Shown: positions 4,274-23,347 of the stretch, piece by piece
Layout of the letters: the number at the start of each line of letters is the position of its first letter
Position numbering within the stretch: position 1 is the first letter of the stretch
DNA from: Nitrososphaerales archaeon
GTDB taxonomy: Archaea; Thermoproteota; Nitrososphaeria; Conexivisphaerales; UBA164
Assembly (NCBI GenBank): GCA_023256355.1
Contig: JAGDXJ010000038.1
Location: forward strand, 1-34,857
Length of the DNA stretch: 34,857 nucleotides
Direction of reading: 5' to 3'
The notes under the pieces: model-generated
Database searches by the model: none
What the model was told of the DNA's origin: nothing
What the model saw: the letters and a program-made list of their open reading frames with translations, nothing else
Program-made: the position numbers and the translations under genes

Positions 4274-4294
4274 TGTATTTTTTATATGATAGTA

Positions 4295-5971
4295 ATGGCG
4301 TCTTATTTAAGTGGAGCTCAAGCCTTAGTAAAGGCATTAGAAGGGGAAAAAGTAGAGGTAATATTTGGCATACCAGGAGGAGCTACGCTGCCCTTTTATG
4401 ATGCTTTGAAGGACTCGAACATCAAACACGTTCTGGCGAGGCATGAGCAATCTGCCGCCCATATGGCAGACGGCTACGCAAGAGCTTCTGGCAAGGTGGG
4501 TGTTTGTACTGCAACTTCAGGGCCAGGTGCTACAAACCTGCTGACCGGCATAGCTACAGCATACCTTGATTCGTCTCCGGTGGTCGCTTTAACAGGTCAG
4601 GTTGCAAAAAGTTACATAGGTAAAGACGCATTTCAAGAAATAGACACAGTGGGCATCTACAGCCCTGTTGTAAAATATGCGTTTCAGCCTCTTTCGGCTT
4701 CTGAAATACCGTTCGATGTAAAGGCCGCTTTCTATATCTCCAGCACAGGAAGGCAGGGACCAGTGCTTATAGACCTGCCAAAAGATGTACAAACGGAAAC
4801 AGCTGAAATCGAGTTCCCTGAAAGAATAGAGATTAAAGGTTATAGACCGTACATAAAACCAGATCCAGAAGCAGTAAAAGAAGCGGCAAAACTGATCATA
4901 CAGGCGCAGAAACCGGTGATTCTGGTAGGTGGAGGAGCAGTAAAGTCGGAAGTTGGTCCCCTGGTATTAGAACTTGCAGAAATGTTCATGATTCCCATAG
5001 CAAGCACATTGATGGGTAAAGGAGCAATCCCTGAAAATCATTTCCTGTCTGTCGGTCCCATTGGAATGCACGGTACATATCATGCAAATACCCTAATAAT
5101 GGAAAGCGACCTGATTATTGGAATAGGGGTCAGGTTTTCTGACAGAACTACGATGGATACTAGAGAATTTACAAAAGACAGAATGATATTGCACTTTGAC
5201 ATAGATCCAACTGAAGCTAGAAAAAACCTCGTCAATGAATTTCCAGTAATAGGAGATTTGAAAGAATCGCTGAGCATTCTGATTTCAGAAATAAAAAAGA
5301 TGATGCCGTACATAAAAAGTTCTCCATGGCACAAAAGAGTTAAGGAACTAAAGGATTATTACGATGACAGAATTTTCGGAGAAAACGTAATGAGCCCACT
5401 TATCGTAAAGAAAATCAGGGATATACTTGGTCCAGATGATATCGTGACTACAGAAGTTGGCCAGGCACAAGCATGGGCTGAGCTGTTTTATAAGGCATTA
5501 AAACCCAGAACTTTCATAACCAGCGGTGGTTTGGGCACCATGGGTTTCGGATTTCCAGCGGCAATAGGCGCAAAAGTTGCAAAATTTGATAAAACTGTAG
5601 TGGACATTGCAGGGGACGGAAGCTTCTTGATGACCTCTAACAGCCTGGCTACTAGCGTTGCAGAAGGCATACCGGTGGTGGCGGTTATCCTGGATAACGC
5701 GGTGCTAGGCATGATAGCTCAATGGCAGAGAATTGTGTATAACAACAGGTACATAGCATCATCTCTAGGAGAAACTCCTAACTTTCCGGCGCTTGCAAGA
5801 GCTTATGGCGCTGAAGGTGTCAGGGTAAACGGTCTTGAGGATTTTGTTAAGTACTTTAAAGAAGCTGTTAGAAGCGAAGTTACCTATGTTATAGACGTCC
5901 CGATATCGCCAGAAGAAAACGTTTTCCCATTCGTTCCGTCTGGAAAAAGTTTGAGGGAAATGATAGTATGA
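4295..5971 (+). CDS. ilvB: Acetolactate synthase large subunit (TPP-dependent); ORF track opens at 4286
   Basis: GIPGGATLPFYDAL, HEQSAAHMADGYARASGKVGVCTATSGPGATN, GDGSFLMTSNSLAT. Confidence 0.95.
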   Translation: MASYLSGAQALVKALEGEKVEVIFGIPGGATLPFYDALKDSNIKHVLARHEQSAAHMADGYARASGKVGVCTATSGPGATNLLTGIATAYLDSSPVVALTGQVAKSYIGKDAFQEIDTVGIYSPVVKYAFQPLSASEIPFDVKAAFYISSTGRQGPVLIDLPKDVQTETAEIEFPERIEIKGYRPYIKPDPEAVKEAAKLIIQAQKPVILVGGGAVKSEVGPLVLELAEMFMIPIASTLMGKGAIPENHFLSVGPIGMHGTYHANTLIMESDLIIGIGVRFSDRTTMDTREFTKDRMILHFDIDPTEARKNLVNEFPVIGDLKESLSILISEIKKMMPYIKSSPWHKRVKELKDYYDDRIFGENVMSPLIVKKIRDILGPDDIVTTEVGQAQAWAELFYKALKPRTFITSGGLGTMGFGFPAAIGAKVAKFDKTVVDIAGDGSFLMTSNSLATSVAEGIPVVAVILDNAVLGMIAQWQRIVYNNRYIASSLGETPNFPALARAYGAEGVRVNGLEDFVKYFKEAVRSEVTYVIDVPISPEENVFPFVPSGKSLREMIV

Positions 5972-6462
5972 AAAAAGAAAGGGTGTTTTTTATAACCGTT
6001 GCAGATAAGCCAGGAGTGCTTTTTAAAATAACTAATATATTCCGACGCAGAAACTTTAACATAGAGAGCGTTACAGTTGGCAAAACGCTGGCAAAGGATG
6101 AATCGCAGATAGTAATAACTATAAATGCTGACGACGAAGAAGCGGATAGCTTTGCGAGAATGGTCAAAAAGCTGATAGATGTTTATGAAGTTGTTGAAGC
6201 GCCAAAAGACTCATGCTATGCTCAGGAGCTTTTGCTGGCTAAATTAGAAGGCGATCCAGATGGGTTGCAAAAGATAGCTGAAAATTATGGCGCGCAGTTG
6301 ATAAAAAATGGCACACTGATATTAAAGTATGTCGGTGAGCCTGCGAATGTCGAAGAGTTGATAAAAGATCTTTCCCAGTTCAAGATAATACATATATCGA
6401 GGACAGGGATAACAGCTGTGGTGAAAGAAGATGGTAAAGATATATTACGATTCGGACGCTGA
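5968..6462 (+). CDS. ilvH: Acetolactate synthase small (regulatory, ACT) subunit
   Basis: ADKPGVLFKITNIFRRRNFNIESVTVG ACT motif; ATGA overlap with ilvB. Confidence 0.93.
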   Translation: MKKERVFFITVADKPGVLFKITNIFRRRNFNIESVTVGKTLAKDESQIVITINADDEEADSFARMVKKLIDVYEVVEAPKDSCYAQELLLAKLEGDPDGLQKIAENYGAQLIKNGTLILKYVGEPANVEELIKDLSQFKIIHISRTGITAVVKEDGKDILRFGR

Positions 6463-7420
6463 TTTAAACAGCATAAAGAATAAAACCGTAGCTATAATAG
6501 GCTACGGAAGCCAGGGAAGAGCTCACGCTTTAAATCTAAAGGATTCAGGGATAAATGTAGTTGTAGGAGTAAGAGAAAATGGTAGATCATGGGAAGCAGC
6601 AAAAGCAGATGGATTTAACCCGAAAAACATAGAAGAAGCTTCACGGGTTGGGGATCTTATCGCTGTGCTCATACCTGATACGGAGCATGGTGTAGTTTAT
6701 GATAAATACATTAAGAACAACTTAAAAGAGGGCAAAACGTTGCTTTTTGCTCACGGTTACAGCATAAGGTTCGGACTGATCAAACCCCCGCGTTATGTTG
6801 ATGTCGTGATGGTAGCCCCAAAATCCCCGGGTCCAAAACTAAGAGAATCATTCTTGCAGAATTTTGGAGTACCGTCTCTGATAGCTGTTCATCAGGATTA
6901 TTCCGGCAAAGCAAAAGATACAGCTCTGGCATACGCAAAAGGCTTGGGATCAACCAAAGTCGGTGTACTTGAAACCACTTTTGCGGATGAAACAGAGGAA
7001 GACCTGTTCGGCGAACAGGCAGTATTGGTTGGCGGCCTTATGTATCTGATTAAGAACGGGTTTGATGTGCTGGTGGAAAACGGTTATCCGCCAGAACTTG
7101 CATATTTTGAAGTATTGCACGAAATGAAACTCATCGTGGACCTTGTCTATTCTTCAGGGCTTACTGGTATGTTAAAAGCAGTAAGTGATACTGCAAAGTA
7201 CGGAGGTATAACACGGGGTAACATAGTTATAGATGAAAGTGTGAAAAAAAGGATGGAAAAGCTTCTCGCTGAAATTAAGAACGGGAGCTTTGCTCAAGAG
7301 TGGACCGGAAATCCCGAGCAGAGCAAACAGAAACTTGAAAAAATGATGAACGATATAGAAAACCTTGAGATTGAGAAAATAGGCAAAAAAATTAGAAAAC
7401 TAGCTGGATTGGAGAAATGA
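6431..7420 (+). CDS. ilvC: Ketol-acid reductoisomerase (class I)
   Basis: IIGYGSQGRAHALNLKDSG, AHGYSIRFG, MVAPKSPGPKLRESF, DETEEDLFGEQAVLVGG. Confidence 0.96.
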   Translation: MVKIYYDSDADLNSIKNKTVAIIGYGSQGRAHALNLKDSGINVVVGVRENGRSWEAAKADGFNPKNIEEASRVGDLIAVLIPDTEHGVVYDKYIKNNLKEGKTLLFAHGYSIRFGLIKPPRYVDVVMVAPKSPGPKLRESFLQNFGVPSLIAVHQDYSGKAKDTALAYAKGLGSTKVGVLETTFADETEEDLFGEQAVLVGGLMYLIKNGFDVLVENGYPPELAYFEVLHEMKLIVDLVYSSGLTGMLKAVSDTAKYGGITRGNIVIDESVKKRMEKLLAEIKNGSFAQEWTGNPEQSKQKLEKMMNDIENLEIEKIGKKIRKLAGLEK

Positions 7421-8907
7421 ATAGGAAAGTATACGTTTTTGACACAACTCTAAGGGATGGAGAACAAACTCCGGGTGTTAGCCTGAGTATAGATGATAAA
7501 TTTGAAATAGCAAAGGCTCTCGATGTCCTTGGGGTAGACATAATCGAGGCTGGCTTTCCTGCAGCTAGCGAAGGAGAATTTAATGCAGTAAAAAGAATTG
7601 CAAATGCCGGGCTAAGGGCCAAGGTAGCCGCTCTGGCAAGGTTAAACCCCGGTGATATGGAAACAGCTCTTTCTACGGGTATAAAGAGGATTCACGTGTT
7701 TATTGCGACGTCTGACATTCATCTTCAATATAAACTCAAGAAAAGCAGACAGGAAGTTCTTCAGATAATAAAAGAAAACATAGGCTATCTAAAAGATAAA
7801 GGTGTTGAGATAGAATATTCCGCTGAGGACGCAACAAGGACAGAAAAGGAGTTTTTGCTTCAGGCTTTCTCAAAAGCTGCAGAAAGCGGGGCTTCCGTTC
7901 TTGACATTGCAGATACAGTTGGCATAGCATCTCCCAGCCTGATAAAAGAATTAGTTACAGCTGTAAAAAAAGAGATCCCTGACAAAAGGGTAAGCGTACA
8001 TGTGCACAACGATCTAGGCCTTGCAACTGCGAACACGCTGGCCGCTATTGAGGCGGGCGCAGATCAATTTCATGGTACTGTTAATGGGATAGGAGAAAGG
8101 GCAGGCAACGTTAGCATAGAAGAAGTGGTAGTTGCTCTTAAGGTCCTTTATAATATTGAAACGAGTATAAATCTAGAAAAGATTTACGAAACATCCAAAA
8201 TCGTAGAAAAACTTACTGGAATAAGGATAGCTAAAAATAAGCCAATAATCGGGGAGAACGCTTTTGGTCATGAAAGCGGTATTCACACTCATGGTATACT
8301 GAACAATCCAAGGACTTATGAACCAATAAGCCCTGAAATGGTTGGAAGAAAACGATGGTTTATGGCCGGAAAGCTTTCTGGAAGTCATGGCATAGCTGCG
8401 CAGCTTAAAGAAATGGGCATCCAGGTTAACGATCAGCAGCTCCAGGAAATAGTTAAGAAAGTTAAAGCTCTAGGGGATGCAGGTAAGCACGTAACAGATG
8501 CTGATCTTTACGCTATAGCAATGTCAATAACCGGAAGCTCACCTCAAAAATACCTGAACCTTAAAGGTATAGTTTCAGTAACAGGCATGAATATTTCTCC
8601 TACGACGTCCATAAGAATAAGCTTCAAAGAAAAAGACTTTGAATCTTCCAGCACCGGTATTGGACCGGTTGACGCTTCGCTTAAGGCAATTCAAAAAGCT
8701 CTTGAAGGAGTGCTTAAAGTAAACCTGATAGAATACAGTATAGATGCTATAACAGGCGGTTCCGACTCTCTGGCGCAGGTAAGCGTAAAAGTTGAAGATG
8801 AAGAAGGTCATATTGCATCTTCTACCGCTACCGGTCCAGATATAGTCATGACGAGCGTAGAAGCAATGATAGATGGTATTAATAAGCTGCTATTAAAAAG
8901 GGTATAG
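7417..8907 (+). CDS. leuA: 2-isopropylmalate synthase (LeuA family; citramalate synthase not excluded)
   Basis: FDTTLRDGEQTPGVSLS, HVHNDLGLATANTLAAIEAGADQFHGTVNGIGERAGN, C-terminal regulatory domain; between ilvC and leuB. Confidence 0.9.
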   Translation: MNRKVYVFDTTLRDGEQTPGVSLSIDDKFEIAKALDVLGVDIIEAGFPAASEGEFNAVKRIANAGLRAKVAALARLNPGDMETALSTGIKRIHVFIATSDIHLQYKLKKSRQEVLQIIKENIGYLKDKGVEIEYSAEDATRTEKEFLLQAFSKAAESGASVLDIADTVGIASPSLIKELVTAVKKEIPDKRVSVHVHNDLGLATANTLAAIEAGADQFHGTVNGIGERAGNVSIEEVVVALKVLYNIETSINLEKIYETSKIVEKLTGIRIAKNKPIIGENAFGHESGIHTHGILNNPRTYEPISPEMVGRKRWFMAGKLSGSHGIAAQLKEMGIQVNDQQLQEIVKKVKALGDAGKHVTDADLYAIAMSITGSSPQKYLNLKGIVSVTGMNISPTTSIRISFKEKDFESSSTGIGPVDASLKAIQKALEGVLKVNLIEYSIDAITGGSDSLAQVSVKVEDEEGHIASSTATGPDIVMTSVEAMIDGINKLLLKRV

Positions 8908-8913
8908 TAACAG

Positions 8914-9933
8914 ATGAAATACAGGATAGCCTGGATGAAAGGAGATGGTATAGGACCTGAAATTTCTGATGCTGCAATCAGGGTGCTAACTCTTTTAGGA
9001 GATATTTACGGTATAAATTGGGAATTAAATTTTTACGAGATGGGGGATGAAACAAAAAAGAAATATGGTACAGCTTTACCTGAAGAAACGATTGAAGGAA
9101 TAAAATCGTCAGATCTGGCTATCAAGGGGCCAGTTGGTGAAACAGCATTTGAAAGCATAGTTACGCTGCGCCTTATTTTAGATCTTTACGCCAACATACG
9201 TCCAGCAAGAAGCTATAAAGGGGTTCCATCAGTTAAGCCTATAGATGTCGTAATAGTCAGGGAAAATACAGAAGATCTTTACAAAGGAATAGAATTTAAA
9301 ATAAACGACACAGCAGTAGCGTTGAAAATATTTTCAGAAAAGGGCACAAAAAGAATAGCCAGAATAGCTGCAATGTACGCGCTTAACAGAAAAAAGAAGG
9401 TAACCATAGTGCACAAGGCAAACGTAATGCGTATCACGGATGGCTTTTTTAGAGATATCGCGAGACAAGAACTGGAAAAGTTTAGAATTCAAGTTGATGA
9501 AAAATACGTCGATGCCATGAGCATGGCACTCATAAGAAACCCTCAAGATTTTGACGTAATTTTAACTCCTAACGTTTATGGGGATATCCTCAGCGATGAG
9601 GCTGCTCAGATCGCAGGCGGGTTGGGTTTTGCTGGTTCGGCCAATATAGGAGACAGCTTTAACCTTTTTGAACCGGTTCACGGTTCAGCGCCAGACATAG
9701 CAGGTAAAGGCATTGCGAATCCTTATTCTATGTTCAATGTTATTTTAATGGCGCTTGAATATTTATACATTAAGAAAAATGATGTTAACGCACAGAAAGC
9801 GAGCGAGGCTCTTGGGAAATCCATAGAATCTTGCATAAGCAAAGGGTTTTTAACGCCAGATGTAGGGGGTAAGTTTAAAACTGGCGATATCACAAACTAT
9901 CTGGAACAAGAGCTGAAAGCTTATGCCAGATGA
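8914..9933 (+). CDS. leuB: 3-isopropylmalate dehydrogenase (isocitrate/isopropylmalate DH family)
   Basis: WMKGDGIGPEI, YANIRPARSYKGV, VRENTEDLYKGIE, TPNVYGDILSDEAA, EPVHGSAPDIAGKGIANP. Confidence 0.9.
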   Translation: MKYRIAWMKGDGIGPEISDAAIRVLTLLGDIYGINWELNFYEMGDETKKKYGTALPEETIEGIKSSDLAIKGPVGETAFESIVTLRLILDLYANIRPARSYKGVPSVKPIDVVIVRENTEDLYKGIEFKINDTAVALKIFSEKGTKRIARIAAMYALNRKKKVTIVHKANVMRITDGFFRDIARQELEKFRIQVDEKYVDAMSMALIRNPQDFDVILTPNVYGDILSDEAAQIAGGLGFAGSANIGDSFNLFEPVHGSAPDIAGKGIANPYSMFNVILMALEYLYIKKNDVNAQKASEALGKSIESCISKGFLTPDVGGKFKTGDITNYLEQELKAYAR

Positions 9934-11171: not shown

Positions 11172-12194
11172 ATGCGTCTGAATTCAGCCATACTGGGTTA
11201 CGGTGCTTACGTTCCGAAGTACAGGATAAGCACAGAAGAAATAGCAAGGATTTGGGTTGGTGAAGGATCTGGTCCTAACAGGATGAAAGCGGTAGCTTCC
11301 TACGACGAAGACGCGTTAACAATGGCTTACGAAGCAGCTTCGATAGCTCTAAAAATGGCAAACTATCCTGAGATAGAGGCTATACTGGTTGGATCTGAAT
11401 CAAAGCCATATGCTGTAAAACCAATGGGTTCTGTTTTGAGCGACATTCTCGGCTTTAACAAGATACTGGGCGTTGACCTTGAGTTTGCATGTAAAGGTGG
11501 TACAGAAGCGGTTCAGATGATAAGCGGCATGATAACATCAGGAGTCATAAAACACGGTCTTGCGATAGGATCTGATACCGCACAGGGTAGACCATCTGAT
11601 GATCTGGAATATACAGCGGCTAGCGGTGCAGGTGCAGTAGTGCTAGGCCAGCCAAACGGTAAAGAAATAGCTAAGATAACTCATTCAGTAACTTTTGTTA
11701 CAGATACTCCGGACTTTTGGAGAAGGCCAAAAGAGCATTATCCGATGCATCTTGGAAGGTTCACCGGCGAACCGGCATACTTTACCCATATCATGTCAAG
11801 CGTTAAACTCTTGTTTGAAGAAACAGGGTATAAGCCATCAGACTTTAATTATGCAATATTCCATCAACCAAATCCAAAGTTTCCAGTAGAAGTAGGTAAA
11901 AGACTCGGGTTCAAGGATGAACAGTTGAAACCAGGACTGCTTAATGACGAGCTGGGTAATTCTTATTCCGCAAACACGCTGGTGGCTCTGAGCGTCGTAC
12001 TCGACGTTTCAAAACCAGGAGACAAGATTCTTTTATCAAGTTTCGGCAGCGGCGCTGGAAGCGACACTTTTGTAATAGAGGTTGTATCAAAAGCAGACGA
12101 TGACGATTATATACCTTTGCGCGAAAAGTTAAAGAATTATGTGGAGATTGATTACGCGACTTATTCAAAGTGGAGGAATAAAATAATAAGGTGA
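11172..12194 (+). CDS. Hydroxymethylglutaryl-CoA synthase (archaeal)
   Basis: GYGAYVPKYRISTEEIARIWG-like start, DLEFACKGGTEAVQ, FHQPNPKFP, GNSYSANTLVALS; followed by thiolase and DUF35. Confidence 0.95.
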   Translation: MRLNSAILGYGAYVPKYRISTEEIARIWVGEGSGPNRMKAVASYDEDALTMAYEAASIALKMANYPEIEAILVGSESKPYAVKPMGSVLSDILGFNKILGVDLEFACKGGTEAVQMISGMITSGVIKHGLAIGSDTAQGRPSDDLEYTAASGAGAVVLGQPNGKEIAKITHSVTFVTDTPDFWRRPKEHYPMHLGRFTGEPAYFTHIMSSVKLLFEETGYKPSDFNYAIFHQPNPKFPVEVGKRLGFKDEQLKPGLLNDELGNSYSANTLVALSVVLDVSKPGDKILLSSFGSGAGSDTFVIEVVSKADDDDYIPLREKLKNYVEIDYATYSKWRNKIIR

Positions 12195-13336
12195 TAAAGA
12201 TGTCAAAAGTATATATAAAATCTGTAGGTGTAGTACCTGTAGGGGAACACTGGAACAAATCACTTACAGACCTTATGGTTGAGGCTTCGCTTAACGCCTT
12301 AAAAAATGCAGGAAACGTGAAGATAGACAGAATAGTTGTGGGAAACATGATGTCCGGTTACTTAAATAATCAGGAACATCTGGGGGCGCTTTTAGCAAGC
12401 GCGCTGGGAATGAAAGGTACTGACGCTCTAAAAGTGGAAGCCGCATGCGGGTCAGGCGGTATGGCGGTTCATGAAGGTTATGTTTCGGTAAAATCAGGTG
12501 AATTTGAAAATGTACTTGTGGTTGGAGTTGAGAAGATGAAAGATACAGATACATCAGTTTTGACTAAGGCTTTGGCTATGGCGGAAAGCGCAGAGTTTAC
12601 TCAAGTGGTTGGAGCATCTTTTATATCCCTTAATGCTTTGTTGATGAAGATGTACATGAACAGGTACAACGTTCAGGAAGAGTATTTGGACAACTTCCCG
12701 GTGATAGCACACAAAAATGCAGTTACTGCGCCGCACGCACAGTTCAGGAAAGCCTTTACTCTTGAAGACGTAAAACGGTCTCCTTATCTTGCTGAACCCA
12801 TAAGGCTTTTGAGCAGCGCCCCTTCGAGCGATGGCGCGGCAGCTGTTGTGTTGAGCTCGAAACCTTCAGATGTGGAGATTCTAGCCTCAGAAGTTTCTAC
12901 CAATGAGCTGATACTGTCGCAGAGGGAAAACCCTCTCAGGTTTGAAGCTACAGAAAAGGCTTTCAAAAAAGCTGTAGAAAAATCCAGTATAGATCCCGCT
13001 AAAGTAGATTTTCTTGAAATTCACGATGCTTTCCCGATTGTAGCGGCATTAAGCCTGGAAGCTATGGGATATTCAGAGGAAGGCAAAGCCGGTTATGATG
13101 CGGCAAAAGGTAAATACAATTTTGAAGGGGACCTGCCTATACTGACTTTTGGAGGGCTTAAAGCGAGAGGCCACCCAGTAGGTGGTACGGGAGCATACCA
13201 AGTTGCTGAAGCTTATATGCAGCTTTCGGGAACTGCAGGCAAAAATCAGGTACAGGGAGCAAAGGTTGGAATTACGCAAAACGTTGGTGGAGTAGATACA
13301 ACTTCTGTAGTTCATGTCATGAGGAGGGTGAGCTAA
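12191..13336 (+). CDS. Thiolase family acetyl-CoA C-acetyltransferase (archaeal HMGCS-associated); ATG at 12200 is an alternative start
   Basis: VEAACGSGGMAVHEGY, EIHDAFPIVAALSLEAMGY, GGLKARGHPVGGTGAYQVAEA. Confidence 0.93.
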   Translation: MIKMSKVYIKSVGVVPVGEHWNKSLTDLMVEASLNALKNAGNVKIDRIVVGNMMSGYLNNQEHLGALLASALGMKGTDALKVEAACGSGGMAVHEGYVSVKSGEFENVLVVGVEKMKDTDTSVLTKALAMAESAEFTQVVGASFISLNALLMKMYMNRYNVQEEYLDNFPVIAHKNAVTAPHAQFRKAFTLEDVKRSPYLAEPIRLLSSAPSSDGAAAVVLSSKPSDVEILASEVSTNELILSQRENPLRFEATEKAFKKAVEKSSIDPAKVDFLEIHDAFPIVAALSLEAMGYSEEGKAGYDAAKGKYNFEGDLPILTFGGLKARGHPVGGTGAYQVAEAYMQLSGTAGKNQVQGAKVGITQNVGGVDTTSVVHVMRRVS

Positions 13337-13337
13337 G

Positions 13338-13727
13338 GTGATACCCATAGCTTATTGGAGAAACAGAAAACTTTATACAAGGCTTATTGGTAGCAGGTGC
13401 AAAAAATGCGGTGCTGAATACTATCCGCCAGTAAAGGTTTGTAAAAAATGTGGATCAGCTGAAATAGAAGAAAAAGAGATGCCAAAGACCGGAACGATAG
13501 TTTCTTTTACAAAACTTACTGAGCCTCCTGTGGACTTTAAAGATTATGCGCCGGTATATCTTGCCATGATAAGGCTGGATAACGGAATACTGGTTTTGGG
13601 ACAGCTGGCAGATGCAGAAAGCGAAGAAATAAAGATAGGAGCTAAAGTTACGGCTACGATCAGAAAATGGACAGAAGACGGACAAAGCGGGATAATTTAT
13701 TACGGCTATAAATTTAAAATAATCTAA
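13338..13727 (+). CDS. DUF35 OB-fold / zinc-ribbon protein, scaffold of the thiolase-HMGCS complex
   Basis: CKKCGAEYYPPVKVCKKCGSAEIEE rubredoxin-like zinc ribbon followed by OB-fold; gene order. Confidence 0.92.
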   Translation: MIPIAYWRNRKLYTRLIGSRCKKCGAEYYPPVKVCKKCGSAEIEEKEMPKTGTIVSFTKLTEPPVDFKDYAPVYLAMIRLDNGILVLGQLADAESEEIKIGAKVTATIRKWTEDGQSGIIYYGYKFKII

Positions 13728-13732
13728 AAAGT

Positions 13733-15649
13733 TTATTTGCACTTTCCGTTATTTTTTGCTTCAGATAGTTCATCCAGGCTTATTATGTATTCTGCATGGC
13801 TCCAGACAAGAGGAGATACAGAAATCGGCCCTCCATCGTATGGATTTATCTGTTCTGAAAGCACCCCAGATCTTTGGCTGTGATCTAAAACCCACTTTAT
13901 AAGAGAAAGCGCTTTTTCACAGTCCCCAGTAGCTATATAATATCTTGATGACCAAAGCGTTGTTATTATCCATGGGTTACCGGGTATTTCTTTGTCGTCC
14001 TTGATTCTTTGATACATATCACCTTCATATCTTGCGAGCCCGCCTGTATTTTTAACCCACAACCGGTTCATTATTACGTCCATGTTGGCCTTTACCTTTG
14101 GGTCTGCTGGATCTTTCATTCCAAACAGAAAAAGGGCCATGTTTTGCGAATCAACCGTAAAATCAGGCCTTCCGTTTATTATTGCCCTTGCATAGTATCC
14201 TTTTTCAGGTGAATAGAAATGTGTTTCATAGGCTGAAGCCATTTTATTTGCGACGCTAAGGTATCTTTCAGAAACGTCATCTTCTTTAAAAACGTTTGCA
14301 AATTTTGAAGCCGCCACAAGAGCTGCATATACTGTAGAAACCGTATATGTATGAATACCAAACCGTTCTTCCCAAAGGTCATAGGATTCTTTTGGAAGCC
14401 CATCTTCGTTAACAAACGAAGCCATAAAGTCTGCAGCTTTTTTAATTAGTTTCTCATACAACGGGAAGAAATATTCAACGTCCAGCGATTTAAGATAATA
14501 CTGCCATAGCGACCAGATCACAAGTGCAGTTTCATCTTCCTGAATTGGTATTATCGGCTTTCCTCCTATTATCCTTGGTATCCAGCTGCTTGCCATGTTA
14601 CCGTCTGGCAAGTATTTGTGGTGAAAATACCCGCTATCGGTAACAGTTGAAAGAGCGAATTCAAAGAACTTTCTAGCAGCGCTAAAATGATATGTTTTTG
14701 TTAAAGCATAAGTAGCTAACGCTGCATCTCTGGGCCAGACATAATAATAACCATCTTTACTTTTTTTAAGAATATCGCTGTCTGAAGATGCCATAATAGC
14801 TCCTTTGTTGTTCATGTGAATTTTTATGATAAATTGTGATTTTCTGAATAAAGAAAGCATATCCTGTGTAGCCTGAATGTTTCTCTTTTCGTTCCAAACC
14901 GTCCAGTAATTTTTTGTTCTTTTATACATATCATTTAGAGCATTAAAGGAAAGCCTTCTCCTGATGGACTGAAGAGAATCAAGGTCTTCCTGTGCTATTA
15001 TAAAGTAATACATTACCTTTGTTTCTTCAGGCAATAAAAACATAGTATGTCCTATTACAGAATCTACAGAACCTATAGCTACAGCATTAAACGACAGTTT
15101 CCCATCTTCAGCATCCTTCCAAGTCCCTTCATAACCGTCAAACCCCTTGATTCCAACTGCGTACTGATCAATGCTGTTTCCGTACTGATCAAGAGTTGAC
15201 ACTAAAAAAAGCCTTTTGTTCTTGTAATGAATTATAGAATTTAAATGCGGTTCATAAAAAGCAGTATCACCTATGTCGTTTCCGTATATATAAAAATCCT
15301 GATGGAAGAACAGTTTTATCTCCAGTGAAGCGTTACCTTTGTTTGTTATGGTAATCTTTTTTGAATAAACATCATCGTAAATATCCACAAAATCATTGTT
15401 TACTATTTCCAGTGGATTTATGGATAATTTAACTTCAGTTACCATAGTATCATCTAAATAATCCATGTTAGTTATGATATCATGCGTTATCCACTTAAAC
15501 CCCCCATCTACAGCTAAACCAAACCTAAACGGATGTCCAACTGCATGATTTTCAGCCTGATCGTGAGCGTAGTAAAGATCTACTATTCTGTAGTCTTTAT
15601 CAAAGCTTAACAGAAGTCTATTGTTACCTATTGGTAGAAAACGAACCAT
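13733..15649 (-). CDS. Glycoside hydrolase family 15 (glucoamylase or trehalase type), no evident signal peptide
   Basis: YYYVWPRDAALATYAL, PKESYDLWEERFGIHTYTVSTVYAAL, LSEQINPYDGGPISVSPLVWSHAEYI. Confidence 0.9.
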   Translation of the reverse strand: MVRFLPIGNNRLLLSFDKDYRIVDLYYAHDQAENHAVGHPFRFGLAVDGGFKWITHDIITNMDYLDDTMVTEVKLSINPLEIVNNDFVDIYDDVYSKKITITNKGNASLEIKLFFHQDFYIYGNDIGDTAFYEPHLNSIIHYKNKRLFLVSTLDQYGNSIDQYAVGIKGFDGYEGTWKDAEDGKLSFNAVAIGSVDSVIGHTMFLLPEETKVMYYFIIAQEDLDSLQSIRRRLSFNALNDMYKRTKNYWTVWNEKRNIQATQDMLSLFRKSQFIIKIHMNNKGAIMASSDSDILKKSKDGYYYVWPRDAALATYALTKTYHFSAARKFFEFALSTVTDSGYFHHKYLPDGNMASSWIPRIIGGKPIIPIQEDETALVIWSLWQYYLKSLDVEYFFPLYEKLIKKAADFMASFVNEDGLPKESYDLWEERFGIHTYTVSTVYAALVAASKFANVFKEDDVSERYLSVANKMASAYETHFYSPEKGYYARAIINGRPDFTVDSQNMALFLFGMKDPADPKVKANMDVIMNRLWVKNTGGLARYEGDMYQRIKDDKEIPGNPWIITTLWSSRYYIATGDCEKALSLIKWVLDHSQRSGVLSEQINPYDGGPISVSPLVWSHAEYIISLDELSEAKNNGKCK

Positions 15650-15779: not shown

Positions 15780-17570
15780 GTGTTAAAATATAACGAATGG
15801 TTAATAACTAACAAAAAAGGTAGTTACGCTTCGTCATCATCAACATTTGCAAACCTCAGAACTTATCACGGGCTTTGTGTTAAAAGGGATCAGAATAATT
15901 ATGAAGGAAAAGTTTTACTTTCAAAGCTTTATGAAGAATTTGAAATAAATGGTAAAAGCTACAGCATTGATACCAATTATTATTTAGACACCATACATCC
16001 AGAAGGGTTTAAGCATTTGATAGATTTTAACCACGATCAATTTCCATGGTTTGAATTTGACGTAGCTGATTCTTTAATAACCAAATCGCTTGTCATTGAC
16101 CCGGATAAAGACTGGCTTGTGATCAGGTATGAATTTATAGGCCGGTTGCCCGATAAGATTTACTTGCATCCTCTTTTTGCTTTTAGAAGCTTTCACTTAG
16201 CTTTGAGGAAGAGAGAAATAAACATGAAAACATTTCAATCAGAAAACGGATACAGCTTTAGGATAGGAGATGATTTTGTTACTATCTATGTCAAAGGTAA
16301 TTTTATAAAAGATAGCACATGGTTCTATAATTTTCTTTATCCGATAGATAAGGAAAGAGGTTCAAATTGCGTTGAGGACCTTTATCACGAAGGATATTTT
16401 GTTATAAAGCCCATAGAGAATTTTCTTGAAGTAAAAATATCATGCGAAGAAGCAGAGCCTCAAAATTTTGAAGTTATAAAAAGAAGGATGTTATCGAACA
16501 GGTCTTCTTTTAAAGGCGAACTTAACGGCGTTGCAAAGGCTTCAACGTCTTTTTTGCTGTACGATGATGTAATAGCTGGGTTTTACTGGTTCGGACCATG
16601 GACAAGAGACACGATGATCTCTTTACCGGGTCTGCTGCTCGTTACAAAAAGGTTCAAAATCGCTAAAAACATACTAGAAAAATATTCAAGGCTTGCAGAA
16701 AAAGGAATATTACCTGTATCATTGGTTGATCCTAACAACATAGCTTCAGCCGATTCTTCCTTATGGTTTATTTATGCCCTTTACAAATATTATATCTACA
16801 CTGGTGACAAAAATACATTAAAAAAGTTATTACCTTCAGCAGTTTCTGTTTTGAATGCTTACATAAAAGGCAATGATTTTTTCGAAATTAAAGGTTCTTT
16901 AATCTACGTTAAAAAGCCTCAATTGACCTGGATGGATGCAAGAACAGGCAATACCATCTTTACACCCAGGACCGGTATACCGGTTGAAGTCAATGCCCTC
17001 TGGTACAATGCGTTAGCAACTTTAGACTATTTTTCTAAAGAGTTAAGTATTAACATGCCTGAGTACGTCAAAACGCTTCAACAAAAGGTTAAAGAAGAGT
17101 TCATTCAGAAATTTGTTCGCGGAAATAAAGTTTTGGATACTGTCGAACCAGAAGATGATAGTTTGAGGCCTAATTTTATAATTGCCTTTTCTTTGCCTTT
17201 TCCTGTTTTGGACAATTTTTCGGACTATAAAAAAGTGGTGGACGACAAGCTGTTAACTCCTTTCGGTCTTAGATCTCTTTCCCCTGATGATCCAAATTAT
17301 ATCGGAAAGTATGAAGGCGATCGATACCAGAGAGATCGCGCATACCATAACGGTTCTGTATGGCCATGGTTAGCTGGTCCTTATATAACAGCGTCGGTTA
17401 GAAGTGAAAACGAGAAAGAGACCTTGTACGAATATTTTAAACCGCTGATTAAAATGAAAATGATCCCAGAAATATTTGATGGAAATGAACCTCATATACC
17501 TCGTGGCTGTATAATGCAAGCATGGAGTTATGGCGAGATTTTAAGGGCATATGCTGAAGACCTTACTTAA
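15780..17570 (+). CDS. Glycogen debranching enzyme (amylo-alpha-1,6-glucosidase type, GH133); GTG start
   Basis: NKKGSYASSSSTFANLRTYHGL N-terminal motif; GPWTRDTMISLPGLLL; WMDARTG; RDRAYHNGSVWPWLAGPY. Confidence 0.9.
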   Translation: MLKYNEWLITNKKGSYASSSSTFANLRTYHGLCVKRDQNNYEGKVLLSKLYEEFEINGKSYSIDTNYYLDTIHPEGFKHLIDFNHDQFPWFEFDVADSLITKSLVIDPDKDWLVIRYEFIGRLPDKIYLHPLFAFRSFHLALRKREINMKTFQSENGYSFRIGDDFVTIYVKGNFIKDSTWFYNFLYPIDKERGSNCVEDLYHEGYFVIKPIENFLEVKISCEEAEPQNFEVIKRRMLSNRSSFKGELNGVAKASTSFLLYDDVIAGFYWFGPWTRDTMISLPGLLLVTKRFKIAKNILEKYSRLAEKGILPVSLVDPNNIASADSSLWFIYALYKYYIYTGDKNTLKKLLPSAVSVLNAYIKGNDFFEIKGSLIYVKKPQLTWMDARTGNTIFTPRTGIPVEVNALWYNALATLDYFSKELSINMPEYVKTLQQKVKEEFIQKFVRGNKVLDTVEPEDDSLRPNFIIAFSLPFPVLDNFSDYKKVVDDKLLTPFGLRSLSPDDPNYIGKYEGDRYQRDRAYHNGSVWPWLAGPYITASVRSENEKETLYEYFKPLIKMKMIPEIFDGNEPHIPRGCIMQAWSYGEILRAYAEDLT

Positions 17571-17599: not shown

Positions 17600-18451
17600 C
17601 TAGAAAGATATGTTTTTAATATCAAATCTGAAAGAATAAGTCCCTTCATATTCAGTTTTAACAGCAAAAAGGCTTCCCCCAAGGTCATCCGGTGAATCTG
17701 CAGAGGTTATGAACAAGGTCTTAAGGTCTTTGTCCCCAAAATTGCACGAAGATGTATTTTTTGCTGGGACTTTTATTTCAATCAGTTTTTTATTTTCATC
17801 TGGATTCCAGCGAATTACCTTACCCCCTCCCCACATAGCTACCCAAAGCATGCCTTCTTTATCAATTGTCATGCCATCAGGAACGCCTTCTTCATTTTTT
17901 AAATCAGCAGCAACTCCTGCATATTTTAGGTTCATCATTCTGTCATATTCATACGTCGTTACCTTTTTTGTCGGTGAATCTATAATGTAAAAAACTTTCT
18001 TTTTTGTGTTCCATGCGAGGCCGTTTGAAATTGTCATTTTTTCCAAAATTTTTTTGAAATTCTTACCGTTAAAAGAATAAAGAGATCCAATCGGTCTTTT
18101 TTGATCAAGATCCATTGTGCCAATAATTATTAAACCATCGGGGCTAACTTTTCCGTCGTTAAACCTTGTATTAATGTTGTTTTCTACTTCTGCTAATTTT
18201 TTTACCTCTTTACCGTTATCTATAAGATAGAGCGAATGACCAGCGCTAGCAATTATTTCTTCTTTATTTGTTAAAAAAACGGCTGACACCATTTCCGGCA
18301 TATCGATGTGCGTTATTTCTTCTCCAAAAGTCCTTGATGTATAAATTTTTTTGTCCTCTATGTCAACCCAGTAAATCAAATCTTTTATCTCGTCGTATAT
18401 AGGACCTTCCCCTAGCTTGTTTATCTTTCTGTAAATTGTCTTTACTTCCAA
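17600..18451 (-). CDS. SMP-30 / gluconolactonase / regucalcin family lactonase
   Basis: LGEGPIYDEIKDLIYWVDIEDKKIY, NDGKVSPDG, SNGLAWNTKKKVFYIIDS. Confidence 0.88.
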   Translation of the reverse strand: MEVKTIYRKINKLGEGPIYDEIKDLIYWVDIEDKKIYTSRTFGEEITHIDMPEMVSAVFLTNKEEIIASAGHSLYLIDNGKEVKKLAEVENNINTRFNDGKVSPDGLIIIGTMDLDQKRPIGSLYSFNGKNFKKILEKMTISNGLAWNTKKKVFYIIDSPTKKVTTYEYDRMMNLKYAGVAADLKNEEGVPDGMTIDKEGMLWVAMWGGGKVIRWNPDENKKLIEIKVPAKNTSSCNFGDKDLKTLFITSADSPDDLGGSLFAVKTEYEGTYSFRFDIKNISF

Positions 18452-18551: not shown

Positions 18552-19739
18552 ATGAGCAAAATACAGAAAATAGAACCCATAGTTTTAGGAGAAAAAAGCG
18601 GTCCAGCTACATGGGCTTCATTGATGATACTTGTGCGCGTTGAAACTTCTGATGGTATGGTAGGTTATGGTGAAGCTGTGCCAACCCTGAGGATTGGTCC
18701 AGTTGTTGAATCGATCAGAGAAGTTTCGAAAGTTTATGTTGGGAAAGATCCGTTTGAAATTGAAGCTAATATGAAGGAATGGGAGAAACATGATTTTTAC
18801 CTTCACAGCTCCTTTGAGTCAACTACGGCGCTAAGCTCTGTCGATATTGCCTTGCATGATATATTAGGTAAATACCTAAAGGAACCAGTTTACAAGCTAC
18901 TGGGGGGCAAAGTTAGGGACAAGATTCCTGTTTACGCAAATGGATGGTACAGCAACTGCAAAACCCCGGATGATTTTTCAGCTAAGGCTAAAGATACAGT
19001 GAACAAGGGCTATAAAGGGCTTAAGTTTGATCCATTCGGAGGAGAATGGGATTCTATTTCCGATGAAGCTCTCAAGAAAGCATCTGAAATCGTAAAAAGC
19101 ATAAGAGAAGCTGTGGGAGACCATGTTTATCTTATGATCGAGCATCACGGCAGGTTTAATCCAGATGCCGCTGTAAAAATAGCAAATGAACTTTCACAGT
19201 ATGATCCGCTTTTTATGGAAGAGCCTGTTCATCCATGGAATATGATGGGTTTAAGGGATTATAGAGCTAAATCATCAGTTAGAGTCGCGCTTGGAGAAAG
19301 AATAATATCAAAAGAACAGGCTCTTGAATATATATCTGAGGACCTTGTTGATGTGCTGCAGCCAGATATATGTAACATCGGTGGCTTTACAGAATTAAAG
19401 AAGCTTTCTGCGTTAACAGAAGCTTATGGAGTGCTATTGGCGCCTCACAACGCATTCGGTCCTGTTCAAAACGCGGCAACAATTCAGTTTGATGCATGGG
19501 TTCCCGGTCTTTTAATTCAAGAATCTTTCTATGATTATTTTCCTGAGTGGAAAAGAAATCTTGTAAAAAACATGACGCCGGTAGTCAACGGATACTATGA
19601 GGTTAAAGATGGTCCAGGTCTTTCCTTAGAAATTGATGAAAGTGTTCTAGAAAGCTACAGGACAACTGGAGAAGAAGAGTTTAACCCAAATGAACCTGTA
19701 TGGGTAGTCAGAGGGACGTGGTTAACTAGGACCATCTGA
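18552..19739 (+). CDS. Enolase/mandelate racemase superfamily sugar-acid dehydratase, likely D-gluconate dehydratase
   Basis: GEAVPTLRIG, SVDIALHDILGKYLKEPVYKLLGGKVRDKIPVYANG, KGLKFDPFG, MEEPVHPWN, ALGERI, DICNIGGFTELKK, APHNAFGPVQ; embedded among ED genes. Confidence 0.85.
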   Translation: MSKIQKIEPIVLGEKSGPATWASLMILVRVETSDGMVGYGEAVPTLRIGPVVESIREVSKVYVGKDPFEIEANMKEWEKHDFYLHSSFESTTALSSVDIALHDILGKYLKEPVYKLLGGKVRDKIPVYANGWYSNCKTPDDFSAKAKDTVNKGYKGLKFDPFGGEWDSISDEALKKASEIVKSIREAVGDHVYLMIEHHGRFNPDAAVKIANELSQYDPLFMEEPVHPWNMMGLRDYRAKSSVRVALGERIISKEQALEYISEDLVDVLQPDICNIGGFTELKKLSALTEAYGVLLAPHNAFGPVQNAATIQFDAWVPGLLIQESFYDYFPEWKRNLVKNMTPVVNGYYEVKDGPGLSLEIDESVLESYRTTGEEEFNPNEPVWVVRGTWLTRTI

Positions 19740-20814
19740 TTATTCTTTTTATTTCTCCTTTTCCATCACCATTAAGTGCTTCTACACTTTTTTCAGGAAC
19801 GTCTTCATCAGTAATTATTTCTTCTAAAAGGTTTCCATAAATCTCCTTCCACATAGAAAGATAGTTTAACGCTTCGACATAATGTTGTTTTGCTCCGTCT
19901 ACAGTTCCGAAAACAGTTATGTTTTTTTCAACTGCTTCAGTCAACATTTCTCCGGTTATGTTTATGTTTCCCGCTAATGTTGTCCCAAATAATATCTCTA
20001 CTCCGTTATATTTGAGTGCCTGAAGTCCCTTTCCAACTATTTCTGGCCTACCGGTTGTGTCCACAAAGATGTCAGATATCAAGCTTTTTACATCGATTTT
20101 AATCGCATCTTCCTGAATAAAATCCGCGCCAATCCTTTTGCATATGTTTGAAGCAACACCTTCTTTATCGCTCCTCGATATCAAGGTAACTTGAAACCCG
20201 TGAGTAATGAAGAGCATAGAAAAGAGAATTCCTATAGGACCTGCACCTATTATGGTTACTTTTTTGCACCAGTATGAACCGTCTGAACATGTTTTTACAG
20301 ACCTGTTAGAAACGGTTTGATAAACTTCGTATGCTTTTACCAGATTTTTTAAAGGTTCGGTCAAAACGGCTAGCTTGCCCAGATTTTTATCTTTTACCTT
20401 TACGAGGTATTCTTCTTCATCTATAAAATATTCTCTCATAAACCCATCTTTGCCTCTTATTCCCGCTTCTACAAAATCTCCATCTTCACAGTTATCCTGC
20501 CTTCCTATTTTACACTGGATGCATTTTCCAGGCCTCCTAACAATAGGAACAACTAGATCTCCAGGTTTTAAGGACTTAACTTTTTCACCTGTATCCATAA
20601 CCTGTGCAAGCCCTTCATGACCCAGCACCAGTAAGTCTTTGTCAGCTTCAGGTCTTGCGAAATTAAGTAGCCCATTTATTATGCCCCTGTCAGTTCCGCA
20701 GATCCCCGTATAAAGGGTCTTTAAAAGAACCTGTTCGTTTACTGGTTTGTCAGGAGGCATAACTTCTGTCAGAAAGGCGCCTTTTTGTCCTATCTTTACT
20801 GCAATGCCCTTCAT
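19726..20814 (-). CDS. Glucose 1-dehydrogenase, zinc MDR family
   Basis: GICGTDRGIINGLLNFA, VLGHEGLAQVMDTG, CIQCKIGRQDNC, TEPLKNLVKAYE, IIGAGPIGILFSMLF. Confidence 0.88.
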   Translation of the reverse strand: MKGIAVKIGQKGAFLTEVMPPDKPVNEQVLLKTLYTGICGTDRGIINGLLNFARPEADKDLLVLGHEGLAQVMDTGEKVKSLKPGDLVVPIVRRPGKCIQCKIGRQDNCEDGDFVEAGIRGKDGFMREYFIDEEEYLVKVKDKNLGKLAVLTEPLKNLVKAYEVYQTVSNRSVKTCSDGSYWCKKVTIIGAGPIGILFSMLFITHGFQVTLISRSDKEGVASNICKRIGADFIQEDAIKIDVKSLISDIFVDTTGRPEIVGKGLQALKYNGVEILFGTTLAGNINITGEMLTEAVEKNITVFGTVDGAKQHYVEALNYLSMWKEIYGNLLEEIITDEDVPEKSVEALNGDGKGEIKRIIRWS

Positions 20815-20816
20815 AT

Positions 20817-21665
20817 TTATACAACCTCATCAAGAAGTTTTTCCTGTGACTCTTCTAAATCGTTTAATGGGAAAGGCATGTAATTTTTTGGATTGGCTTC
20901 TTTTAACACTTTTTTTCTAAAAAGATAATAATACGGCTTTGGAAACTCATAAAGCGCCAAATTTTTCATGATTTTGACAATTTCTCCGTGTGCGTCAACC
21001 GACCTTTCGTCATAAACTTTAACTATTTTATCTGAAAAATTGGATGTTCCACATACGCCCCCTGCGGCCCCTACACTAACTGATGGGAGCAAAAGATCAT
21101 CCTGTCCCTGATATACGTAAAAGTCTTTTGGCAGTTCATTTAAAAACATTTGAAAAGTTCTTAGATCACCAGAACTGTCCTTTAGCCCTTTAACGTTGCT
21201 GTTTTCTCTTATCAGCTTTGTCAACGTTTCAGGAATTATTGCATTGCCAGTAAATTGAGGTATGTTGTATATAATTATTGGCATATCGATCTTCGATACC
21301 CTATTTAGGTAGGAAAGTATGGTTTCCTGGCTTATTTTAAAATAGAACGGCACAACTACAACAGCAGCATCATAACCCAGATCTTTTGATGTCTTGATCA
21401 TCTTCAAGGTTTCTTCAAAATTGTTTCTGCTTACCCCTGCGTAGGCCGCAATCCCTGAAGGCTTACGTTTGATCGTCGCTTCAAGCATCGTTTTATGTTT
21501 ATCAAAGCTAAAGAAGGCAAAAAGCCCAGTAGAACCCATCGGGAATATGCCTTTTACTCCAATATTTTTTAAAAATGTTAAGAGTGAATCAAGATCTTCT
21601 ACGTTTATATCGCCGTTTCTTACAGGAGTTATCATTGGTGTGATGATACCTTTTACCAAGCTCAT
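20817..21665 (-). CDS. 2-keto-3-deoxygluconate aldolase (DapA/NAL family); ORF track extends to TTG at 21674
   Basis: GIITPMITP, MGSTGLFAF, IIYNIPQFTG, VKGLKDSSGDL (Schiff-base Lys), adjacent to glucose DH. Confidence 0.85.
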   Translation of the reverse strand: MSLVKGIITPMITPVRNGDINVEDLDSLLTFLKNIGVKGIFPMGSTGLFAFFSFDKHKTMLEATIKRKPSGIAAYAGVSRNNFEETLKMIKTSKDLGYDAAVVVVPFYFKISQETILSYLNRVSKIDMPIIIYNIPQFTGNAIIPETLTKLIRENSNVKGLKDSSGDLRTFQMFLNELPKDFYVYQGQDDLLLPSVSVGAAGGVCGTSNFSDKIVKVYDERSVDAHGEIVKIMKNLALYEFPKPYYYLFRKKVLKEANPKNYMPFPLNDLEESQEKLLDEVV

Positions 21666-21719
21666 AACACACAATTGTTTTTTAACAGATTTACACGTTT
21701 CTAAACAAACAAAAAATGA

Positions 21720-22331
21720 TTACTTTAAACAATCTTTAATTCCTTTTAGAATCAAGTACATCGCTACAGCTCCTGGATCTAAATGCCCCCTGCTGTTTTC
21801 TCCATAGTAGCTTGCCCTTCCGATGGTTGCGACCATATTTTTTGTTGAGTTCATACCTTCTTCAGCCGCTTTTAAGGCTCTGTTTAAAACGGTTTCTACC
21901 TGTCCTTTTTCTTCTAGGTTTTCAGTAAAAGGATAGAGCACATCCAAAAAAGTTTTTTGTCCTCTTTTAGCGCCTCCCAGTTCTTCGACAGTTTTTATTG
22001 CTTCTTCAAACATTCGTTTAAGCTCATTTATCGTTAACTCTTTTTTTCCTTTTGATATCCTTCCCATAGCTACCAGCATAGAGCCAAAAAGCGTTCCAAA
22101 TGTTCCAGAAGCTTCTTCCATTATGGTCTTTCCTGCTTCATCCAAAAGTTTCCATATCTCGTTAGAATTTAAGTCTTTATCTAGGGCTCTAAAGCCTCTG
22201 CTTATGTTCACACCAAAATCAGAGTCTCCAATTTCCGAATCCAGGTCAGTAAGCAGCCTTTCATTTTTCTGGATTTCCGTGGAAGCATGCTTTAGAAAAC
22301 ATCTGAAGAATTCTGCATCAAAATTCATCAA
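21720..22331 (-). CDS. dhaL: Dihydroxyacetone kinase DhaL-like (nucleotide-binding) subunit
   Basis: LTDLDSEIGDSDFGVNISRGF, EEASGTFGTLFGSML, GHLDPGAVAM. Confidence 0.88.
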   Translation of the reverse strand: MMNFDAEFFRCFLKHASTEIQKNERLLTDLDSEIGDSDFGVNISRGFRALDKDLNSNEIWKLLDEAGKTIMEEASGTFGTLFGSMLVAMGRISKGKKELTINELKRMFEEAIKTVEELGGAKRGQKTFLDVLYPFTENLEEKGQVETVLNRALKAAEEGMNSTKNMVATIGRASYYGENSRGHLDPGAVAMYLILKGIKDCLK

Positions 22332-23347
22332 GACATCACCGTACTGGCCATAGGAATGGTCTTTACCACAGGCGTAAGAGCCGGCGCAGAAAACAATCTT
22401 TTCATTTCTTCATCAACTTTCAAAATTGCAACTCTGGTGCCCTGCATTTCTATAGATGTTAAAAACTCTCCTACCCAGCTTGCATACGTTTTAAGTCCCA
22501 AGCCATTAAGGTAATTCATTACGTCTCTGTAAAAAACAAGTTTTTCCATGTAGGGTGTTCCCCCTGTCCCCTGTACAACTGCTATTATTTCATCTCCTTT
22601 TTTTACATTCAAATCTTCAACAAGCTTATCGACCATAATTTTTGCCAGCTCCGCAGAAGGAACATACTTTATCCTCTGTACACCGGGTTCTCCATGGATG
22701 CCTATACCAAATTCTATTTCGTCTTCTTTAAGTTCAAAAGAATACTTTCCAGCCGCTGGAACGCTGCAGGGTGTCAGAGCCACCCCTATATCTCTACCAT
22801 TATCTATTACCTTCTGGGCTATCCGTTTAACTTCTGCTATTTCCATACCTTCTTCAGCAGCGGCTCCAGCGATCTTGTGTGCAAGAACAGTAATCGTTGT
22901 GCCCCTTCTCATTTGTTTATCTTTAAGGGCAACATCATCATTAGATATAACGAGTTCTGTTTTTATACTATCATCCTCAGCCAGCTTCATAGCTGCCTTA
23001 AAATTTATCTTATCACCTGTATAATTCATTATTACAGAAAGAACGCCTTTTTCCGTTGCAACCGTTTTCATTGCCTGATAAATCTGCATAGTTGAAGGGG
23101 ATGTAAAGACAGCACCCGCTATCGCAGCGTCCAACATCCCGTAACCTACAAAGCCGCCATAAGCTGGTTCATGCCCGCTGCCCCCTCCTGTAATTATAGC
23201 CACCTTGTCTTTTTTCCTGTATTTTCTGTATATGTTATTGTACTTTGGATCTAGTTCTATAAGTTCTGGGAAAGCCATGACCAAGCCTTCAAGCATTTCA
23301 CGCACTTCTTCTCCAGGTTTGTTCAAAATCTTTTTTATCATAGTCAT
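22328..23347 (-). CDS. dhaK: Dihydroxyacetone kinase DhaK-like (substrate-binding) subunit
   Basis: TGGGSGHEPAYGGFVGYGMLDAAIAGAVFTSPS, MNYTGDKINF, GIGIHGEPGVQ; overlaps dhaL start. Confidence 0.92.
   Translation of the reverse strand: MTMIKKILNKPGEEVREMLEGLVMAFPELIELDPKYNNIYRKYRKKDKVAIITGGGSGHEPAYGGFVGYGMLDAAIAGAVFTSPSTMQIYQAMKTVATEKGVLSVIMNYTGDKINFKAAMKLAEDDSIKTELVISNDDVALKDKQMRRGTTITVLAHKIAGAAAEEGMEIAEVKRIAQKVIDNGRDIGVALTPCSVPAAGKYSFELKEDEIEFGIGIHGEPGVQRIKYVPSAELAKIMVDKLVEDLNVKKGDEIIAVVQGTGGTPYMEKLVFYRDVMNYLNGLGLKTYASWVGEFLTSIEMQGTRVAILKVDEEMKRLFSAPALTPVVKTIPMASTVMS

Follow-up and report, generated by a model that had tools for sequence, protein, structure and literature searches.

The window, a stretch of 34,857 nucleotides analysed at its full length, is one contig (G000:C41) of a draft archaeal metagenome-assembled genome of 1.19 Mb that is 82% complete. 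Four genes on its minus strand are arranged head to tail in the order dhaK (22328..23347; 339 aa), dhaL (21720..22331; 203 aa), a gene for an aldolase of the DHDPS superfamily (20817..21674; 285 aa) and the gene for glucose dehydrogenase (GDH; 19726..20814). The first two share 4 nt, and gaps of 45 nt and 2 nt separate dhaL from the aldolase gene and the aldolase gene from that of GDH. Translation of the aldolase more likely starts at an ATG that lies 9 nt downstream of the listed TTG. DhaK and DhaL are encoded by two open reading frames (ORFs) in different frames and do not form a single-chain fusion. The initial annotation, which had placed a two-subunit DhaKL directly upstream of kdgA, was correct on this point, and the gene order is identical in a sister genome (G004; 91%-complete draft). 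The probability of same-strand adjacency of two given genes by chance is ~0.0008 per genome of 1300 genes. The nearest named match of DhaK comes from Conexivisphaerales archaeon 4229S_bin6 (89% identity), and the window is accordingly assigned to an archaeon of this order; Conexivisphaerales have been placed in the class Nitrososphaeria (PMC10833072). Judging from the known habitats of the order, both species with DhaKL probably live in hot springs.

DhaK matched Pfam Dak1 with 371 bits, far above the cut-off, and scored slightly below the cut-off of the NCBIfam DhaK1 equivalog (379 vs 406 bits). DhaL was likewise far above the cut-off of Pfam Dak2 (161 bits) and exceeded that of the NCBIfam DhaL equivalog (172.6 vs 138.3 bits). 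Its AlphaFold model (pLDDT 92) resembles E. coli DhaL (3pnl_B) with a TM score of 0.96. The key residues reported in the initial annotation are all present: in DhaK, the triose-binding subunit, these are GHEP at 58, NYTGD at 108 and GIHGEPG at residues 216-222 (with the substrate His); in DhaL, the nucleotide-binding subunit, they are the three Mg-binding Asp residues D31, D36 and D38, which are invariant in the DhaL alignment. The DhaL motif reads GDSDFG, where PTS-type DhaL has GD(A/G)DHG. Between the window and G004, DhaK is 88.5% identical with a pN/pS of 0.10, and DhaL 75% identical with a pN/pS of 0.21. These ratios, which are rough as synonymous sites are close to saturation, are similar to those of the remaining genes of the operon, indicating that both subunits are under purifying selection. 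Of 250 genomes of the class, only two encode DhaK; both belong to the window's genus and carry the gene in the ED operon.

The KDG aldolase, gluconate dehydratase and GDH of the non-phosphorylative ED pathway are all encoded at the locus. The best solved relative of the aldolase is the KDG/KDPG aldolase 4uxd (204 bits vs 115 for the next), which we take to be a Picrophilus torridus protein, and its orthologues stand in ED operons. GDH, a Zn-dependent MDR enzyme with a Glu_dehyd_C domain (Pfam PF16912), adjoins the KDG aldolase in five of five related operons. Convergent with GDH lies the gene for an enolase-type gluconate/galactonate dehydratase (18552..19739, plus strand), which is 64-67% identical to the sister-genus copies and scored 595 bits against NCBIfam NF040790, below the cut-off of 750. 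Since the NCBIfam equivalog cut-offs were not reached, aldolase and dehydratase were assigned by homology and operon context. An SMP-30/gluconolactonase protein (17600..18451, minus strand; Pfam SGL, 243 bits) likely hydrolyzes gluconolactone. A GH15 glucoamylase-type enzyme (13733..15649, minus strand; Pfam GH15), which is also present in the sister-genus ED clusters (71-73%), would supply glucose, and an archaeal glycogen debranching enzyme (15780..17570, plus strand) scored over the cut-off of NCBIfam TIGR01561. From this gene set, including the 4uxd-like aldolase, we read the cluster as a glucan-to-pyruvate ED operon. Two further rows of ORFs in the window were noted by inspection. Positions 11172-13727 hold HMG-CoA-synthase-like, thiolase and zinc-ribbon OB-fold ORFs in the usual archaeal mevalonate order, and positions 4286-9933 hold a branched-chain amino acid biosynthesis row (acetolactate synthase large and small subunits, ketol-acid reductoisomerase, and isopropylmalate-synthase-type and isopropylmalate-dehydrogenase-type enzymes).

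Three further genera of the family have orthologues of the KDG aldolase (47-51%). In four genomes from two related genera (G005, G006, G008 and G009), an aldehyde dehydrogenase gene lies directly upstream of kdgA with a 4-nt overlap. The encoded enzyme is closest to the D-glyceraldehyde dehydrogenase 5izd (688 bits; next family 373), presumably the T. acidophilum protein. Against the D-glyceraldehyde dehydrogenase equivalog NCBIfam NF040792 (cut-off 760), the G008 copy scored above the threshold with 762.5 and the G005 copy just below it with 753.5. No orthologue of this NAD(P)-dependent dehydrogenase was detected in the five genomes of the window's genus, where the best matches reached 36-38%, compared to 85-100% among its owners. 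DhaKL and glyceraldehyde dehydrogenase are mutually exclusive at this one operon position. In the third other genus (G010, L055:6239-10156), the slot upstream of kdgA contains neither. The presence of dhaKL in the slot of the D-glyceraldehyde dehydrogenase points to D-glyceraldehyde as the probable substrate of DhaKL, and we infer flux through such a route. We regard this argument as strong on anatomical and not on statistical grounds, since the gene was replaced only once, in a single genus. Immediately past the G008 ED cluster stands another S/M/L gene set for a molybdenum hydroxylase (L051:13412-16990).

A search for the EIIA-man domain, the core of DhaM, gave no match in 11 genomes of the family, including both DhaKL genomes, with positive controls from E. 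coli, Bacillus, Caulobacter, Lactococcus and Haloferax volcanii. This agrees with the initial annotation, which had noted that no DhaM is present; a homologue elsewhere in the genome was likewise not found in the two drafts (82% and 91% complete). If both genomes had a single-copy DhaM, the chance that it is missing from both drafts would be ~0.18 x 0.09 = 1.6%. Among 398 sampled Thermoproteota genomes, 9 contain DhaK. DhaM adjoins DhaK in five of these, and the genomes with no adjacent DhaM are G369, G525, G499 and that of the window. At the G286 locus (L079:4887-12885), DhaK, DhaL, DhaM, HPr and EI stand in a row, with an aquaporin, GlpK and a GlpA-like gene divergent; this is a classic PTS glycerol/DHA operon with a complete archaeal PTS for DHA.

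In the phylogeny, the window DhaK is nested within a clade that holds DhaM-linked (DhaKLM) Thermoproteota proteins (support 100/100). Its identity to crenarchaeal DhaKLM members is 55-70%, with 66-70% for the nearest three. A recent transfer of DhaKL from bacteria is not supported, as the bacterial matches found are at 38-46% and those of Thermoproteota reach up to 70%. The window DhaL, in contrast, is only 33-40% identical to all its Thermoproteota relatives, and its stem in the tree measures 2.2-2.9 substitutions per site, compared to 0.4-0.5 for DhaK. A long DhaL stem and a short DhaK stem are as expected if DhaL alone changed partner. Two DhaL motifs are shifted (GDxDHG to GDSDFG, and GGAxGPLYG to SGTFGTLFG), while the PTS-like GRASY...GHLDPG motif is retained. 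The simplest reading of these sequences is that a PTS-dependent kinase lost DhaM and that its DhaL was re-tuned to exchange ATP, which would make ATP the phosphoryl donor of DhaKL. Phe replaces the His of GDxDHG in 5/5 DhaM-less archaeal DhaL proteins and in 0/13 DhaM-linked ones. However, the motif change is no proof of ATP use, because nine DhaM-less bacterial DhaL proteins keep the His and the window DhaL keeps GHLDPG. DhaKL without adjacent DhaM and with Phe in GDxDFG is also seen in G525 (L082:7362-9023), G499 (L083) and G369 (L081:7441-9175). The DhaKL genes of G525 and G369 have sugar-acid epimerase, isomerase or class II aldolase-like genes as neighbours, and no glycerol genes. Forcing the window pair together with G525/G499 was rejected by DhaL (AU p 0.007; a test weakened by the long DhaL branch) but not by DhaK (p 0.065), so that more than one archaeal loss of DhaM is partly supported.

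Enzymes that could act on the product of DhaKL are encoded in the genome. A type II GAPDH is present with PGK beside it, as is a GAPN-like aldehyde dehydrogenase (370 bits to T. tenax GAPN 1ky8; 525 vs an NCBIfam cut-off of 780). Therefore, glyceraldehyde-3-phosphate can be used. By our arithmetic, the net yield per glucose would be 0 ATP via GAPN and 1 ATP via GAPDH/PGK, as against 0 for the glycerate route. The check for a KDG kinase called for by the initial annotation covered three PfkB kinases of the genome, which has two weaker PfkB matches (C40 and C8) besides; none of the three is a KDG kinase equivalog, and all match ribokinase-type models only.

On the basis of these results, we consider it probable that DhaK-DhaL is a DhaM-independent two-subunit triose kinase that, in an ED operon for glucose degradation, has taken the place of the NADP-dependent D-glyceraldehyde dehydrogenase. 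The main competing explanation is that the glycerate branch, consisting of a molybdenum glyceraldehyde oxidoreductase and glycerate 2-kinase, is still the main route, and that DhaKL serves in side salvage of triose. A genome without the glycerate branch, for which the initial annotation had recommended a search, was found only in part: the NADP-type glyceraldehyde dehydrogenase is absent, but a MOFRL-type glycerate kinase (G000:C13; 220-242 bits vs equivalog cut-offs of 670/550) and the large subunit of a glyceraldehyde-oxidoreductase-like molybdoenzyme (G000:C18; 416 bits vs a cut-off of 790) are both present, and we dropped the notion of a missing branch. With these genes persisting, glycerate could still be made. 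The G004 orthologue of the large subunit has as its best PDB relative 4zoh, an archaeal glyceraldehyde-oxidoreductase-like protein, and in that genome the two genes are about 6 kb apart. On the other hand, G002, a 92%-complete genome of the same genus, has both genes but neither a KDG aldolase orthologue nor DhaK; in this genus the two genes are therefore not tied to the ED operon. Moreover, the molybdoenzyme, whose score is far from its cut-off, is common to genera that also own the NADP-dependent glyceraldehyde dehydrogenase. Taken together, we consider a main route through glycerate unlikely, though it is the most credible of the alternatives. The idea that the glycerate kinase of the genus is unusually divergent, and hence no ED enzyme, was discarded, as the kinases of other genera are likewise only 35-40% alike. 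Those of the sister genera also fall below the NCBIfam equivalog cut-offs. Note that the S, M and L subunits of the molybdoenzyme lie a few kb from the MOFRL glycerate kinase in both G004 (L067:643-11106) and G002 (L068), with a peroxiredoxin and an antiporter in between.

Somewhat less likely still is that DhaKL is a true DHA kinase for glycerol-derived or external DHA that came to lie in the ED operon by chance. The family name would suit such a function, and the closest relatives (G286 and G477) belong to operons for glycerol uptake that also encode aquaporin and GlpK. However, DhaKL occupies the glyceraldehyde dehydrogenase slot and is kept there in two species, and a GlpK above its cut-off is present in the genome, so glycerol can be used without need of DhaKL. 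That the kinase phosphorylates another intermediate, such as KDG or a tetrose/tetrulose, in the manner of the bacterial four-carbon sugar kinases of the family, appears very improbable. DhaM-less DhaKL of alphaproteobacterial plasmids is indeed found in sugar-alcohol operons, for example beside D-threitol dehydrogenase, but the window DhaK is distant from these proteins in the tree, the operon makes no tetrose and DhaK binds short carbonyl sugars; a role as KDG kinase would leave the loss of the glyceraldehyde dehydrogenase unexplained. Equally little credence is given to an alternative to ATP as phosphodonor, be it a distant DhaM substitute, PEP or polyphosphate. The PTS origin of DhaK and the GHLDPG motif that DhaL shares with PTS-type proteins would be consistent with such a donor, but the lack of an EIIA-man domain across the 11 genomes argues against it.

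In the pathway that we propose, glucan would be degraded to glucose by the GH15 and debranching enzymes. Glucose would then be oxidized by GDH, the lactone opened by the lactonase and the product dehydrated to KDG, which KDG aldolase would split into pyruvate and D-glyceraldehyde. The triose would be held covalently on the DhaK His, and DhaL would pass on the gamma-phosphate, most likely of ATP, to yield glyceraldehyde-3-phosphate. The latter would be oxidized either by GAPN or through type II GAPDH together with PGK. The kinase itself would derive from a Thermoproteota DhaKLM system after loss of DhaM. Known DHA kinases act on both DHA and D-glyceraldehyde (PMC3863723), and so does human triokinase (PMC6429413). 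The suggestion of the initial annotation that DhaKL takes the glyceraldehyde released by KDG aldolase, in a new ED branch, is thus supported in part: it gains from the slot swap (four genomes, two sister genera), the absence of DhaM and the lack of a KDG kinase equivalog among the three typed PfkB kinases; it is weakened by the presence of glycerate-branch genes.

The proposed route can be set against known systems. The non-phosphorylative ED pathway of Thermoplasma and Picrophilus (KDG aldolase, NADP-dependent glyceraldehyde dehydrogenase and glycerate 2-kinase) uses the same type of KDG aldolase (4uxd). Its type of glyceraldehyde dehydrogenase is found in the same operon of the sister genera, whereas in the window this gene is replaced by dhaK-dhaL. 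The semi-phosphorylative pathway of Sulfolobus and Thermoproteus, which has a KDG kinase, likewise ends in glyceraldehyde-3-phosphate and GAPN or GAPDH/PGK, with the same net ATP yield, but phosphorylates KDG before aldol cleavage; in the proposed route the triose would be phosphorylated after cleavage. The PTS-dependent DhaKLM systems of Thermoproteota, Haloferax and E. coli share fold and catalytic residues with the window DhaKL. In contrast to these, the window has no DhaM, a fast-evolving DhaL (GDSDFG, SGTFGTLFG) and a glucose rather than a glycerol operon. The ATP-dependent enzymes human TKFC, which acts on D-glyceraldehyde (PMC6429413), and C. freundii DAK would be matched in ATP-type function, but are fusions, whereas the window has separate DhaK and DhaL genes with sequences nearer to PTS-type proteins.

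In the archaeal ED branches described so far, either KDG or glycerate is phosphorylated, and glyceraldehyde is oxidized by a dehydrogenase or an oxidoreductase (PMC2063504). Among the papers covered by our search, which included few from subscription journals, none links a triose or glyceraldehyde kinase to an archaeal ED pathway, and we regard the route as probably a novel form of this pathway. According to a 2013 paper, ATP-dependent DHA kinases are found in eukaryotes and in some bacteria, and PEP-dependent ones in bacteria and archaea (PMC3863723). Because archaea are thus credited only with the PEP-dependent family, an archaeal DhaM-free kinase would also bear on how enzymes that hold ADP as coenzyme and enzymes that use ATP as substrate interconvert. 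In its broadest form, for which we see the chances as evenly balanced, our proposal is a third, post-cleavage ED branch in which an ATP-dependent DhaKL, formerly a DhaKLM that lost DhaM and took over the slot, makes glyceraldehyde-3-phosphate; several archaeal lineages may share this switch from PTS to ATP, each with a His-to-Phe change in the metal-site motif of DhaL. Archaeal ED pathways are classed by the compound that receives phosphate, which is KDG in the semi-phosphorylative and glycerate in the non-phosphorylative type. If our reading is correct, glyceraldehyde would be a third such compound, and the route would join the energy yield of the semi-phosphorylative pathway to the sugar-acid chemistry of the non-phosphorylative one.
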